A DNA stretch of 35,129 bases, taken from a virus. The notes under the pieces were generated by a model. That model had not been told where the DNA came from. It made no database searches and saw only the letters and a program-made list of their open reading frames with translations. Below are positions 1,284 through 6,003 of the stretch, piece by piece (positions within the stretch are counted from its first letter, which is position 1; the number at the start of each line of letters is the position of its first letter). Where the stretch lies: IMG/VR virus record IMGVR_UViG_3300048625_000130, positions 1 to 35,129 of that record, one strand, 5' to 3'. The position numbers were made by a program, and so were the translations under genes.

Positions 1284-1382
1284 TTGGTCTTCCCTTACCT
1301 GCCAGCGCCTTGCTGACATGACTAACTCTAATACACATTCTTAGCTGAGTGCAACTATTTGTGAATGTTATTTATTCGTTAC
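1281..1382. repeat. promoter-leader repeat, copy 1
   Basis: About 100 bp that align with 5901-6003. The AT-rich upstream block, GTTGCA, TGTATTAG, and the leader from ATGTCAGCA to the GGGAAGACCAAATG start are conserved, while the promoter spacer differs. This pattern fits a duplicated regulatory cassette. Confidence 0.8.
1325..1354 (-). promoter_or_regulatory. putative sigma-70-type promoter, cassette copy 1
   Basis: TTGCAC as -35 and TAGAGT as -10 (18-bp spacing), or TATTAG as an alternative -10. The two hexamers are conserved in the second copy at 5945-5974 although the spacer is not, which supports a promoter. It lies between the dCMP deaminase stop and the gene at 1023-1283. Confidence 0.6.
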
Positions 1383-1834
1383 ATTCTGAGATTGATGACT
1401 GTGAGCCCACAGCTGGTCAGGTAGTCCATGACCTTGTGAGGGTCACGGTGTGCATCAGCGTCAGTGATAGGCGCATACACCTTGGCCAGCCCTGAGTTGC
1501 TGATGAGCTTGGCACAGTCCATGCAAGGAAAGTGTGTGCAATAGAGAGTGCCACCCTCTACAGCTGACCTGTCTACATACAGCAGAGCATTAGCCTCAGC
1601 GTGGATAGCTGGGCACCAGCCATAAGTGCCGGGTGTGATGACACCGTTAGCGCGCTCGCAGTAGCTGCGGCAGTTGCCTGCCTGTGGGAAGCCTGCTGCT
1701 GGGCCGTTATAGCCTGTGGCAATGATGCGCTGACGTTGGTCAACGATGACAGCCCCTACCTGTGCACGGTCACACTTGGAGCGCTGTGCAACCACATGGG
1801 CCACCTGCATCCACGTATAAGACCAATCGCTCAT
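1379..1834 (-). CDS. deoxycytidylate (dCMP) deaminase
   Basis: A 151-aa zinc-dependent cytidine/dCMP deaminase-fold enzyme that converts dCMP to dUMP for dTTP synthesis. The catalytic HAE is at 78-80 (E80 as proton shuttle), and the zinc ligands PCMDC are at 103-107. The N-terminal GYNG motif (41-44) and extra cysteines (CRSYC, 55-59) are typical of phage dCMP deaminases, which often carry a second zinc site. The ATG overlaps the upstream stop as ATGA. The last codons run into the AT-rich block of the promoter repeat. Its role could be nucleotide-pool adjustment or supply of precursor for modified DNA, given the Nmad1 and Mom-like genes in the same operon. Confidence 0.93.
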   Translation of the reverse strand: MSDWSYTWMQVAHVVAQRSKCDRAQVGAVIVDQRQRIIATGYNGPAAGFPQAGNCRSYCERANGVITPGTYGWCPAIHAEANALLYVDRSAVEGGTLYCTHFPCMDCAKLISNSGLAKVYAPITDADAHRDPHKVMDYLTSCGLTVINLRM

Positions 1835-2025
1835 GGTGTGTGCTGCCTTATCAGGTCTAAGAGCCAGTGCAGGATGTTTGCTTGGTTGGCTACCATCTGT
1901 GTGGTTGGCAGCTCTAGCTGGTCACGCATCAGCTCTGAGATGCGAGCGTAAGCGTCTTGCTGGCCGGCTAGGTAGCCCTCTTGATACCAACCACCCTCTT
2001 GAGTGTTTGGGTTGAGGTGGCTCAC
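1831..2025 (-). CDS. small hypothetical protein
   Basis: A 64-aa protein with a GTG start that overlaps the upstream stop as GTGA. It is hydrophilic, then helical. It carries an EGYLAGQQDAYARISELM segment (about residues 16-33) of the kind seen in small phage proteins that resemble the next two genes. Function unknown. Confidence 0.65.
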   Translation of the reverse strand: MSHLNPNTQEGGWYQEGYLAGQQDAYARISELMRDQLELPTTQMVANQANILHWLLDLIRQHTP

Positions 2026-2300
2026 TGCTGGTCACCTTTGATTAGAGCGATTGCAAACTCTGAGCGTCTGCACGAGCAATACGGGTAACAGAGGTCATCC
2101 CTGCAACCAATGTAGGGCTCTAGCAGCTTGATGATGCGTTCACGTTCAGCCATACGTGCGTCATAGAGCAGATTCATCATGGTCTCATACTGGCGTGCGC
2201 TTAGGCCCTTATCTTCGCCCTCTATAGTCATCCAGTATTTAGTTGCGCCTAGCTCTGTGCGCTCTGCATTTAGATGCACCCCGGTGCGGTAGTCAATCAT
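2022..2300 (-). CDS. small hypothetical protein with Cys-rich C-terminus
   Basis: Protein of 92 aa. The C-terminal half (MAERERIIKLLE ... ALIKGDQQ) is related to the 56-aa protein encoded directly upstream (ITERKRIVELLE ... ALIKGEK), so the two are probable paralogues. This copy has inserted four cysteines (CRDDLCYPYCSC) that could bind zinc. It starts at an ATG directly after the upstream stop. Confidence 0.7.
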   Translation of the reverse strand: MIDYRTGVHLNAERTELGATKYWMTIEGEDKGLSARQYETMMNLLYDARMAERERIIKLLEPYIGCRDDLCYPYCSCRRSEFAIALIKGDQQ

Positions 2301-2471
2301 CTACTTCTCCCCCTTGATAAGAGCAATCAGGTCATGGGTGACACCAAAGCCACACTCTTGACCATCATGCGCCTCTAGAAGCTCAACAATGCGTTTGCGC
2401 TCAGTGATGACACCTGCCTCAAACTTGCGGGCAAAGGTGCGCTGTAGACGCTCAGCCCAGTCAGGCTTCAT
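2301..2471 (-). CDS. 56-aa hypothetical protein
   Basis: An intact short gene (ATG at 2471, TAG at 2301). It overlaps the stop of the upstream gene as ATGA and abuts the next ATG. The protein is charged and helical: a basic N-terminus (WAERLQRTFARKFE), then ITERKRIVELLE and an ending ALIKGEK. It is a paralogue of the C-terminal half of the 92-aa neighbour. Function unknown. Confidence 0.75.
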   Translation of the reverse strand: MKPDWAERLQRTFARKFEAGVITERKRIVELLEAHDGQECGFGVTHDLIALIKGEK

Positions 2472-2644
2472 GCTGACACCTCACGGCTCAGGTGGTGCTC
2501 AATGGCCAGCTGTGTAGGTGCATGCCTGCGGTCTGTCTCAGGCCAACGGTTTACCCAAGTGCCATCGTGCAGCACTTTGATGCTCCAACCGTCATAGACC
2601 TCTCTGAGCTCAATCAGGTAGGCCACGTCATCAAGCTCACTCAT
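2468..2644 (-). CDS. small hypothetical protein
   Basis: A 58-aa protein starting at ATG 2644 (MSELDDVAYL), with GGGTGG upstream. A GTG at 2653 would add three residues. It contains WSIKVLHDGTWVNRWPETDR, which looks like a small beta-sheet segment. It is translationally coupled to both neighbours. Function unknown. Confidence 0.6.
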   Translation of the reverse strand: MSELDDVAYLIELREVYDGWSIKVLHDGTWVNRWPETDRRHAPTQLAIEHHLSREVSA

Positions 2645-2831
2645 CAGCGCCACCCATCAAGTCGGCAGCTCTGCGAGTGTCACCAACACGTTGAGCCTCA
2701 GCAATGCGGCCCTTACGGTAAGCAGTGACCTCAGCATTGTCACGGTAACGTCTAGCCTCAGCATCACGCTCAGCCTGCTCATAGCCCTGACGGTAAGCAA
2801 GGTGATAGATGGCCTTTATTGTCTTCTTCAT
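2637..2831 (-). CDS. small basic hypothetical protein
   Basis: A 64-aa, strongly charged helical protein (many Arg and Glu). The start is ATG at 2831, which overlaps the upstream TGA as ATGA; the longer start at 2843 would reach further into the upstream gene. Likely a small coiled-coil or nucleic-acid-associated phage protein. Not recognised. Confidence 0.6.
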   Translation of the reverse strand: MKKTIKAIYHLAYRQGYEQAERDAEARRYRDNAEVTAYRKGRIAEAQRVGDTRRAADLMGGADE

Positions 2832-3175
2832 TCGGCAGGCCACTCATTGTCAAGCACCATCAGCGCAATCACTGCATAGTTGGCAAGGTCAAGGAAGCTG
2901 TCACGCAGAGGCTCATTGCTTGCCTCAAGGTTGTTGTCTACAAGGTTGTTGATGCGGGCCAGCTTGTCCCACATGCGCACACGCAGACCGTTGATAGGGC
3001 CACCCGGTGAGCGGCTGATGTTGGTAGGGCCGTAGTCACGGTGCTTACGCAGCAGCAGGTCAGCCTGAATGTCAAAATACTCACGCACAAGCACATCAAA
3101 GTCATGGTCACGTGCCTCAGCAGCAGCCTCACGCTCAAGCATGGCCTTGTAAGCGGGGTGATTGGTCATTGTCAT
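2828..3175 (-). CDS. Nmad1 / DUF1599-family protein (nucleotide modification-associated)
   Basis: The 115-aa sequence resembles the DUF1599 / Nmad1 family. The recognisable core is KHRDYG (about 44-49), then GLRVRMWDKLARINNL, and SFLDLANYAVIALMVL near the C-terminus. The acidic and basic residues in these helices resemble an all-alpha pyrophosphohydrolase-like arrangement. The family is named for its association with phage base-modification loci; its exact biochemistry is not settled. It sits in one operon with the Mom-like protein, the DNA methylase and the dCMP deaminase, consistent with a role in nucleotide metabolism or DNA modification. It overlaps both neighbours by 4 bp. Confidence 0.65.
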   Translation of the reverse strand: MTMTNHPAYKAMLEREAAAEARDHDFDVLVREYFDIQADLLLRKHRDYGPTNISRSPGGPINGLRVRMWDKLARINNLVDNNLEASNEPLRDSFLDLANYAVIALMVLDNEWPAE

Positions 3176-3444
3176 AGCGGTCTTTTTCCTTTGATTAGCT
3201 TCTGCATCTTGGCGAATGAGGCGGTTGCCTCTGGGTCTGTGGCTCCAGCTGAGTAACGGCCAGCGTGAAACATGATGTTGTCTCGCTCCCTCTGAGCTGT
3301 TGCTGATGGGCGCTTAGCACGCTCATGAGACGTGTCAGGGGTGACGTGTGGTGCATAGGTGGTGCGGGGCTTTGGGTTGAGATAGGTGCGGTCATAACGC
3401 TCAGCCTCAAGAGCAAGCCACCACTCAGCAGGTGTCTGGCTCAC
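3172..3444 (-). CDS. hypothetical protein
   Basis: A 90-aa basic protein with a GTG start that overlaps the upstream stop as GTGA. It has an N-terminal Trp-rich helix (PAEWWLALEAERY), a disordered basic middle, and a C-terminal helix ending KGKRPL. No family recognised. Confidence 0.65.
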   Translation of the reverse strand: MSQTPAEWWLALEAERYDRTYLNPKPRTTYAPHVTPDTSHERAKRPSATAQRERDNIMFHAGRYSAGATDPEATASFAKMQKLIKGKRPL

Positions 3445-3641
3445 TGGGTGCCTCCCAGCAGGTAACGCTCAGCAGCTGCACGGTCAACGTCTAGGGCTGC
3501 GGCGAGCGCATCTAGGGCTTGGTGGTAGCGGCGGGTCTTGGTGGCTACTCTTTGGCCGTCATAAATCTCGCTTGAGAGCTTGTCTAAGAGTGCGTCACGA
3601 GCTGTGTTGGCTAGCTCTCTGACTTCAGGTGTCTGTGGCAT
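3441..3641 (-). CDS. hypothetical helical protein
   Basis: A 66-aa all-alpha, Ala-rich protein, probably a small helical bundle. Its ATG is preceded by GCAGGAAGCATAGCAAC, one copy of the recurring TAGCAACATG junction: the Mom-like gene stops at the TAG inside the motif. No family recognised. Confidence 0.7.
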   Translation of the reverse strand: MPQTPEVRELANTARDALLDKLSSEIYDGQRVATKTRRYHQALDALAAALDVDRAAAERYLLGGTQ

Positions 3642-3645
3642 GTTG

Positions 3646-4290
3646 CTATGCTTCCTGCAAAATCTGCGTTTTTGGGTATGGGGCTACTTTATACCTTAGC
3701 TTGCTCATCAGCACTTGCTTGCGCTTCTTAGACGCATTGAAGTAGATGTAGCGATGCTTGCGTGGGCGGTCTACCCAATAGACGTTCTCTGCACCAAACT
3801 TGTCAATGACTTGCGCATTGGTTAGGCCATTGGCGTAGGTGGCATGGTGCTGATGCTCTAGGCCTCTTACCTTTGGGTCACGAAACTTGGAGCTCAGCCC
3901 TGTGTAGATGAAATTGGTAGCTTGGTAGACAACACCCACATGGCGCTGCGAGCTGTCTGCGTAAGACACAATGATTTCACGGTCTAGCAGCTTGATGGTG
4001 TTACCAATCAGGTAGCTCTCACCGTTCTTAGGCACTGAGTCATCAATCCATAGGCGGGTGAGCTCATACACGTTCTGTGCTTCATCTGCACCACAGATAC
4101 CCTTTAGCAGTGTGCTGCTGGCGCTTACGCCATAGACAACTACACCCATGACCTGCTGGGTTTCCCTATGGATGAGCCCAAACGCATAAGAGCATGGTGC
4201 CTTGCGGTGTAGGTAGTGGTTGGCAATCACAATCTCCATTGCCATTGAGTAAGACAAGCGCTCTATTGAATAGTCATCTGACAGTGACAT
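3646..4290 (-). CDS. mom-like: Mom-like DNA adenine hypermodification protein (GNAT-related)
   Basis: A 214-aa protein resembling the phage Mu Mom family, which adds a methylcarbamoyl group to N6 of adenine and protects phage DNA from restriction. Visible family features: NHYLHRKAP near residues 24-32, SYAFGL at 34-39, a GVVVYGVS strand at 49-56, ELTRLWIDD at 76-84, and SYADSSQRHVGVVYQATNF from 109, a GNAT-like core. The C-terminus is very basic (KHRYIYFNASKKRKQ), as expected for DNA binding. I chose ATG 4290 because GGAGG precedes it; the longer start at 4320 lies inside the methylase gene. It is coupled to the adenine methylase upstream. In Mu, Dam methylation activates mom expression. Whether this protein makes the same modification is inference. 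Confidence 0.8.
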   Translation of the reverse strand: MSLSDDYSIERLSYSMAMEIVIANHYLHRKAPCSYAFGLIHRETQQVMGVVVYGVSASSTLLKGICGADEAQNVYELTRLWIDDSVPKNGESYLIGNTIKLLDREIIVSYADSSQRHVGVVYQATNFIYTGLSSKFRDPKVRGLEHQHHATYANGLTNAQVIDKFGAENVYWVDRPRKHRYIYFNASKKRKQVLMSKLRYKVAPYPKTQILQEA

Positions 4291-4297
4291 GTTGCTA
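4288..4297 (-). repeat. recurring gene-junction sequence TAGCAACATG (example copy)
   Basis: Stop codon TAG, spacer CAAC and start ATG. Other copies are at 3639-3648, 9221-9230, 13074-13083 and 14004-14013, with a TAA variant at 4964-4973 and a diverged one near 14125-14134. At 3639, 4288, 9221 and 13074 (and the 4964 variant) the TAG/TAA is the true stop of the upstream gene. Confidence 0.8.
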
Positions 4298-4966
4298 TGC
4301 CTCCAGATTCGTAAAGTCAAAGGTCATCTGGCTGAGGCGTTTAGCGATGCCCTCGCAGTAGCGTTCCTCTAGCTCTACACCGATGACCTTGCGGCCAAGG
4401 TTGCGAGCTGCAAGCAAGGTGGCACCTGAGCCGGCAAAGGGGTCAGCTATGACACCCTCTGGGCTCTTAGCAATCAGGCGCTCCATCAGGTAGACAGGCT
4501 TGGGGGTGGGGTGGCCTAGCTTGGCTACCTCACCGTAGGCACCGTCACGGCGGTCATGGGTGACAAGCACGTTCTGCTCTGGCTTGCCTGTGAAGCCTGT
4601 GCCAAGCACGTAAATCTCTTCGTCAGCGCTAAACCATGGGTTGCTGCGCATGCCGGGGATGTTGGCTGCCTTGTGCCAGATGAGGCGGTGGCGCGTGTTG
4701 GCTGGGCGGGCAATCTTCCATGAGCCGAAGACGATGGCTGGGCGGTCTCCCCAGAGGGCTAGGGCCTTGTCTCGTGCGTCTACGTCTTGGTCATTGGCAA
4801 TGGTCTCTTGGATGGCCACAGTGGCGTTGCTCATGGTGCCTGATTTCCAAGCCACACCGTAGGGCGGGTCTGTTACGAGCACGTCAGCTGCAAGCCACTC
4901 AGTGGTCTCTAGGCAGTCACCGTGATACAGCGTCACCCATTCGTCTTGGTAGTAGGGATGTGACAT
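4295..4966 (-). CDS. DNA adenine N6-methyltransferase, beta class (Dam-like)
   Basis: A 223-aa S-adenosylmethionine-dependent methyltransferase. The catalytic motif DPPY is at 33-36 and precedes the SAM-binding DPFAGSG (175-181); this order defines the beta class. HPTPKPVYLMERL, just before the SAM motif, is also typical. DPPY indicates N6-adenine methylation; the recognition site cannot be read from sequence. It is small, with little room for a target-recognition domain, as in many orphan phage methylases. No restriction enzyme is adjacent. It starts at ATG 4966 behind the TAA variant of the junction motif and is followed by the Mom-like gene, so the pair may act together in anti-restriction or in control of mom. 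Confidence 0.93.
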   Translation of the reverse strand: MSHPYYQDEWVTLYHGDCLETTEWLAADVLVTDPPYGVAWKSGTMSNATVAIQETIANDQDVDARDKALALWGDRPAIVFGSWKIARPANTRHRLIWHKAANIPGMRSNPWFSADEEIYVLGTGFTGKPEQNVLVTHDRRDGAYGEVAKLGHPTPKPVYLMERLIAKSPEGVIADPFAGSGATLLAARNLGRKVIGVELEERYCEGIAKRLSQMTFDFTNLEA

Positions 4967-5903: not shown

Positions 5904-6003
5904 TTGGTCTTCCCTTACCTGCCAGCTATCTGCTGACATAGATAACACTAATACAGATAGTCAGGGAATTGCAACTTCTTGTGCATTGTTATTTTTTTGT
6001 TAC
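5901..6003. repeat. promoter-leader repeat, copy 2
   Basis: Aligns with 1281-1382: same promoter hexamers, leader and ribosome-binding site, different spacer. In this copy the RusA reading frame runs through the block instead of stopping in it. Confidence 0.8.
5945..5974 (-). promoter_or_regulatory. putative sigma-70-type promoter, cassette copy 2
   Basis: TTGCAA as -35 and TAGTGT as -10 (18-bp spacing), with overlapping TATTAG. It reads toward the gene at 5670-5903 and lies within the 3' end of the RusA frame. Confidence 0.6.

Follow-up and report, generated by a model that had tools for sequence, protein, structure and literature searches.

Do the genes clustered around a Mom-like gene in a tailed phage act jointly to modify the phage DNA, or is the modification the task of fewer enzymes? 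The question is raised by IMG/VR virus record IMGVR_UViG_3300048625_000130, a linear and possibly incomplete record of 35129 bases that was analysed whole and is called the window below. An earlier note had described positions 1379-4966 as a DNA-modification neighbourhood and had suggested a self-contained anti-restriction system, in which a methylase, a Mom-like protein, an Nmad1 protein, a dCMP deaminase and small genes share one transcript. We will argue that a two-enzyme system, in which Mom and the adjoining methyltransferase mask the phage DNA while Nmad1, the deaminase and the small genes stand outside, is quite probable. The genes that the note named are all present on the minus strand, as open frames and family matches show, and are listed here with two promoter-like sequences.

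5948-5974, minus strand: promoter-like sequence TTGCAATTCCCTGACTATCTGTATTAG, from which the methyltransferase-mom transcript probably starts; repeated at 1328-1354
4295-4966, minus strand: beta-class DNA methyltransferase, 223 amino acids, probably acting on N6 of adenine (PF01555, PHROG 67)
3646-4290, minus strand: mom, encoding a Mom-family adenine-modification protein of GNAT fold, 214 amino acids (PF25680, PHROG 1384, 8bv8)
3441-3641, minus strand: small gene of 66 amino acids, no family match; open frame with a 4-bp overlap with the next gene
3172-3444, minus strand: small gene of 90 amino acids, no family match; open frame with a 4-bp overlap with Nmad1
2828-3175, minus strand: Nmad1/DUF1599 protein, all-alpha, 115 amino acids (PF07659, PHROG 1485)
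1379-1834, minus strand: dCMP deaminase, 151 amino acids (PF00383, PHROG 174)
1328-1354, minus strand: the same promoter-like sequence a second time, close behind the dCMP deaminase; the next transcript probably begins here

The protein encoded at 3646-4290 is a true Mom-family protein by sequence, fold and active site. It matches the Pfam family Mom (PF25680) over profile positions 2-202 of 202 with E=7.7e-42 (143.7 bits, cut-off 27.1) and PHROG 1384, 'Mom-like DNA modification protein', with 5.2e-49, and the sequence match to Mu Mom in the PDB (8bv8) is 1.4e-12. An AlphaFold2 model, for which the input consisted of 49 window and locus proteins, has a mean predicted local distance difference test score of 93. 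When it is submitted to Foldseek, the two chains of 8bv8 rank first and second (E 1.2e-13, template modelling score 0.66-0.69), and the next matches are GNAT acetyltransferases at about 1e-5. The chain solved in 8bv8 carries, by its description, the inactivating mutation S124A. In the 241-residue numbering of Mu Mom, S124 corresponds to S92 of the window protein, which is kept in 48 of 49 and in 12 of 12 aligned rows. H58-Y59 (window H25-Y26), R111 (R79) and Y159 (Y122) are all conserved, and the position of D149 (D112) is always D or E. The Mom-like identity proposed in the note is thus confirmed by the agreement of Pfam and PHROG profiles, fold and S92, and the structure comparison that it called for places Mu Mom first, so that the non-Mom match which it had named as a refutation did not turn up. 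That the protein is an ordinary acetyltransferase mis-annotated as Mom was rejected on the fold match and the conserved residues. It is important to point out one difference, which is that the window subfamily has a conserved C-terminal RxRKHRY motif at the position of FNQYRY in Mu, so that the target or the added group may be a different one.

We now turn to the methyltransferase at 4295-4966. It matches PF01555 with 3.9e-20 (73.2 bits) and PHROG 67 with 1.1e-50, and its motifs stand in beta-class order, with DPPY in VLVTDPPYGVAW near the N-terminus followed by DPFAGSGAT in VIADPFAGSGAT near the C-terminus. DPPY is usual for N6-adenine methyltransferases, and judging from the motifs the target base is probably the N6 of adenine. 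Its solved relatives are DpnA, CcrM and MboIIA, with which it shares PF01555 and the beta-class order of the DPPY and FxGxG motifs. It differs from them in being shorter, in that the match lies mostly in the motif region at the C-terminus, and in that no partner nuclease was recognised nearby. The label 'Dam-like' used in the note therefore holds in the sense of an adenine methylase but not as a family, since the protein belongs to the beta class (PF01555) and the Pfam scan gave no Dam-family match.

The arrangement of the two genes is tight. As the note had stated, the mom gene follows 4 bp after the methylase: four base pairs separate the stop of the methyltransferase from the Mom ATG at 4290, which is preceded by a GGAGG Shine-Dalgarno sequence, and the genes after mom are joined by successive 4-bp overlaps. 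The order of genes ending in the dCMP deaminase is also as described, except that five more small open reading frames lie between Nmad1 and the deaminase. The operon probably starts upstream of 4966, at the promoter-like sequence 5948-5974. With one copy of this sequence before the gene block and one behind it, the transcript would probably extend between about 5.95 and 1.38 kb. The pattern, which was picked after both copies had been seen, has 2 matches in the window compared with 0.28 expected, and 3 of 100 shuffles reach 2; in a general sigma-70 scan promoter-like sites were no commoner than chance.

Is this adjacency more than an accident? A scan of IMG/VR gave at least 592 stretches with Mom relatives, of which 80 loci were taken; the survey set comprises 50 nearly non-redundant records with Mom, and 40 records found through Nmad1 served as controls. 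PF01555 occurs in 15 of the 50 Mom records compared with 2 of the 40 controls (Fisher P=0.003). Seven of the 16 methyltransferases in Mom records lie on the same strand and at most 1 kb upstream of mom, while about one would be expected (P=5e-6, by random placement within each record, allowing for short contigs). The records are related to one another, and the 7 adjacent cases represent 6 architectures, two of them sharing one. On the Mom tree the adjacency is scattered, with 7 changes, at least 6 of which are forced by well-supported branches. This scatter fits the repeated assembly of a useful pair, gain and loss being indistinguishable. The Mom-methyltransferase pairing is thus recurrent, the window pair is a further example of a known phage strategy, and Mom together with the methyltransferase is likely an anti-restriction pair. 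A wider survey of the pairing may be merited.

These data bear directly on an alternative in which Mom and the methyltransferase are chance neighbours, that is, independent and exchangeable anti-restriction or accessory genes of the early region. Most records do carry Mom or the methyltransferase alone, and early regions have a mosaic make-up of small genes, as this alternative would have it. However, the adjacency exceeds random placement and recurs in several Mom lineages, and methyltransferases are enriched in Mom records, so that we consider chance quite unlikely. The sole difference from the two-enzyme reading is whether the pairing was selected.

The reading that we favour can be formulated as follows. 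The computations show the family, the fold, the conserved active site, the arrangement as an operon and the recurrence of the methyltransferase beside Mom, and from these we infer that the enzymes are active, which group they add, that they have target motifs and that they protect from restriction. Two adenine-modifying enzymes would be made from one transcript. Mom, with the active site of Mu Mom, would add a small group to N6 of a subset of adenines, most likely the methylcarbamoyl (glycinamide) group of the Mu type, drawn from a host metabolite. The adjoining beta-class methyltransferase would methylate adenines in a short motif of its own, and the two would jointly mask the phage DNA from host restriction enzymes. 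Nmad1, the dCMP deaminase and the small genes would most likely be early or nucleotide-metabolism neighbours rather than modification steps. We have also considered the more specific proposal that, in environmental phages, Mom and a beta-class methyltransferase make up an adenine-modification unit of two enzymes that has been assembled repeatedly, in which the RxRKHRY Mom differs from that of Mu in the added group or the recognised sequence, and in which the methyltransferase shapes the sites available to Mom; this we regard as unlikely.

Dam methylation is needed for the transcription of mom in Mu, and the note had drawn on this analogy. The corresponding alternative for the window is that the phage methyltransferase methylates its own promoter and switches mom on in place of host Dam. 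The adjacency of the two genes and the precedent of Mu speak for such a circuit. However, GATC is found 0 times in the 35129 bases, although dinucleotide shuffles predict 83 occurrences and a higher-order model 128. Inside the fragment there is thus no site for self-methylation at GATC or for a Dam switch of the Mu kind; the idea of a GATC methylase was rejected, and the Mu analogy cannot apply here. The enzyme is moreover of the beta class and not Dam, although a different target motif would evade this argument. Finally, because only 4 bp separate the methyltransferase from mom and the two apparently share a transcript, the former cannot gate the latter separately. A circuit of this kind is therefore highly improbable.

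Another option considered was the larger system suggested in the note, in which five or more genes (the methyltransferase, Mom, the small genes, Nmad1 and the dCMP deaminase) act jointly and the small genes and Nmad1 make or deliver the precursor of the adduct. The gene order and the overlaps are in line with it. Among the four other records that have both Nmad1 and Mom, the two lie within about 1 kb of each other in three (P about 0.006 by random placement), which in so tiny a sample is a weak lead, and both control Nmad1 records with a methyltransferase have it at most about 1 kb from Nmad1. The wider counts, on the other hand, do not follow. Nmad1/DUF1599 and the dCMP deaminase are each found in only 2 of the 50 Mom records, while among 79 other Nmad1 loci Mom is present in 2 and the deaminase in none. 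Mom-methyltransferase pairs elsewhere occur without Nmad1, the deaminase or the small genes. The neighbours of mom in 44 loci include replication initiators, primase-polymerases, regulators and methyltransferases, and no biosynthetic or precursor family recurs beside it in these loci. A precursor pathway is thus not indicated, and the simplest reading is a stand-alone Mom that draws on a host metabolite.

Of the small genes, neither 3441-3641 nor 3172-3444 has a Pfam or PHROG family match, and the IMG/VR scans gave no relative for either, the latter having one weak 36% match in locus L009. With no family, no IMG/VR relatives and no recurring mom partner, the precursor role that the note gave to 3172-3641 finds no support. 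The Nmad1 protein matches PF07659/DUF1599 with 3.7e-7 (30.8 bits, cut-off 25) and PHROG 1485. Its model is all-helical and has no significant fold match. A MazG-like all-alpha NTP pyrophosphatase was considered, and MazG and PRA-PH entries do appear in the fold search, all with E above 2; there is no sequence match in the PDB, and the assignment to a recognised enzyme fold is not supported. The dCMP deaminase matches PF00383 with 7.9e-23 (80.7 bits) and PHROG 174 with 3.2e-47, and its zinc motifs (HAE, PCxxC) are found as HAEANALL and PCMDC. Nmad1 and the deaminase are probably co-resident nucleotide-metabolism genes, and it is unlikely that they or the small genes are parts of the modification system; joint action of the whole set is very unlikely. 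The modification neighbourhood is accordingly reduced to Mom with its adjoining methyltransferase, and the self-contained system is not sustained, given that Nmad1 and the deaminase are rare with Mom and Mom is rare with Nmad1. The other records in which Nmad1 stands at most about 1 kb from Mom, in varying order, are L011 (7068-8012), L012 and L094 (8495-10309).

Returning to the two-enzyme reading, the absence of GATC is part of a wider pattern. GATC, GTAC, ATAT, CCWGG, GGWCC and CTGCAG are absent from the whole window, TTAA occurs twice, and TCGA is strongly depleted. For the coding sequence (22.9 kb), shuffling of codons between synonymous positions predicts about 75 GATC, 67 GTAC, 65 CCWGG, 57 CGWCG, 51 TTAA, 33 ATAT, 25 GGWCC and 17 CTGCAG, and not one of these sites is present there. 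By contrast, GGCC, GCGC, AGCT, ACGT, CATG and CTAG occur at least as often as expected. The sets purged in related and control phages are different ones. That at least eight motifs, palindromic or nearly so, have been purged is a sign of strong restriction pressure, and it suggests that the phage uses modification and site avoidance together. It is no proof, however, of what is protected by Mom or by the methyltransferase.

The adenine motif of Mu-type Mom is SASNY, and the idea that Mom keeps SASNY-type sites while the others are purged was rejected: CTAG and CATG cannot fit SASNY yet are kept, CCWGG, GGWCC and CTGCAG can fit it in half of contexts yet are purged, and relatives with a Mom gene have purged AGCT and ACGT. 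The idea that phages with Mom avoid fewer sites than those without was likewise rejected, the groups showing no clear difference. Many related loci among L002-L160 have their own, differing sets of zeroed palindromes; examples are L053 (GATC, AGCT, GGCC, CCWGG and CTGCAG) and L143 (GATC, CATG, AGCT and GGCC).

Four points weigh against the two-enzyme reading. First, 35 of the 50 Mom records, many of them fragments, have no PF01555 methyltransferase, which makes the pair optional. Second, the nearest relatives of the methyltransferase (L161-L164, 71-81% identical) are from phages that show no Mom in the stretch examined, and the methyltransferase thus works without Mom. Third, the purged sites suggest that the modification does not protect everything, and that it guards those sites too poorly to keep them. 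Fourth, because the resemblance to Mu Mom amounts to 27% identity, the substrate or the adduct could differ from that in Mu; as regards the different acyl group that the note had in view, the data favour neither side.

It remains to compare the pair with known systems. Post-replicative hypermodification of DNA bases is the work of only a few enzymes; Mom is one of them, and the debate over its chemistry continues. Mu Mom (241 amino acids, NC_000929 35877-36602, PDB 8bv8) and the window protein share the Pfam family, the best fold match, the equivalents of S124, R111, H58-Y59, D149 and Y159, and the character of a stand-alone enzyme. In Mu, com overlaps mom and the transcript is late and regulated, whereas in the window no com adjoins, the upstream gene is the methyltransferase 4 bp off, and mom lies in an operon with it where a GATC-based Dam switch is impossible. 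Mom leaves the cutting of Dam-methylated Mu DNA by DpnI unblocked (PMC8281217). Jumbo phages carry fusions of Mom with a restriction endonuclease (PMC7824862); the Mom domain is common to them and the window phage, while the window protein has no fused nuclease domain.

Closer relatives are found among environmental phages (IMG/VR L002-L081, up to 77% identical) and annotated ones, namely Roseobacter phage CRP-902 (55%) and Microbacterium phages Lupine and Lifes (45-50%), all of which share the subfamily and the conserved residues of the window Mom. In the annotated phages the gene is labelled hypothetical or acetyltransferase. A methyltransferase lies directly upstream of Mom in L022/L023, L029, L032/L033, L042, L051 and L078; these paired enzymes vary in length and identity, and most of the loci are without Nmad1 and the dCMP deaminase. 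Two Mom-family genes are present in L005 (2909-5415), L062 (5609-6775), L064 (4786-6004) and L071, adjacent to each other in L062 and L064, and the second copy is divergent. The many environmental Mom proteins, some paired with a methyltransferase and some in tandem, offer material to test whether one group is added or several. In Lupine (L166, 4995-7963) the 'hypothetical' Mom homologue is followed immediately by genes for polynucleotide kinase and RNA ligase, and in CRP-902 (L165, 5636-6645) it follows a helicase gene and has a 4-bp overlap with a VRR-nuclease gene.

As to the source of the window, its genes are those of a tailed phage (replication, recombination, lysis, tail and head), and its only match at the DNA level is a short one, to tape-measure genes of Streptomyces phages. 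An actinobacterial host may be hinted at by this match together with WhiB neighbours in related loci. A tRNA-Thr gene with the anticodon TGT lies at 350-423, close to the end of the fragment.

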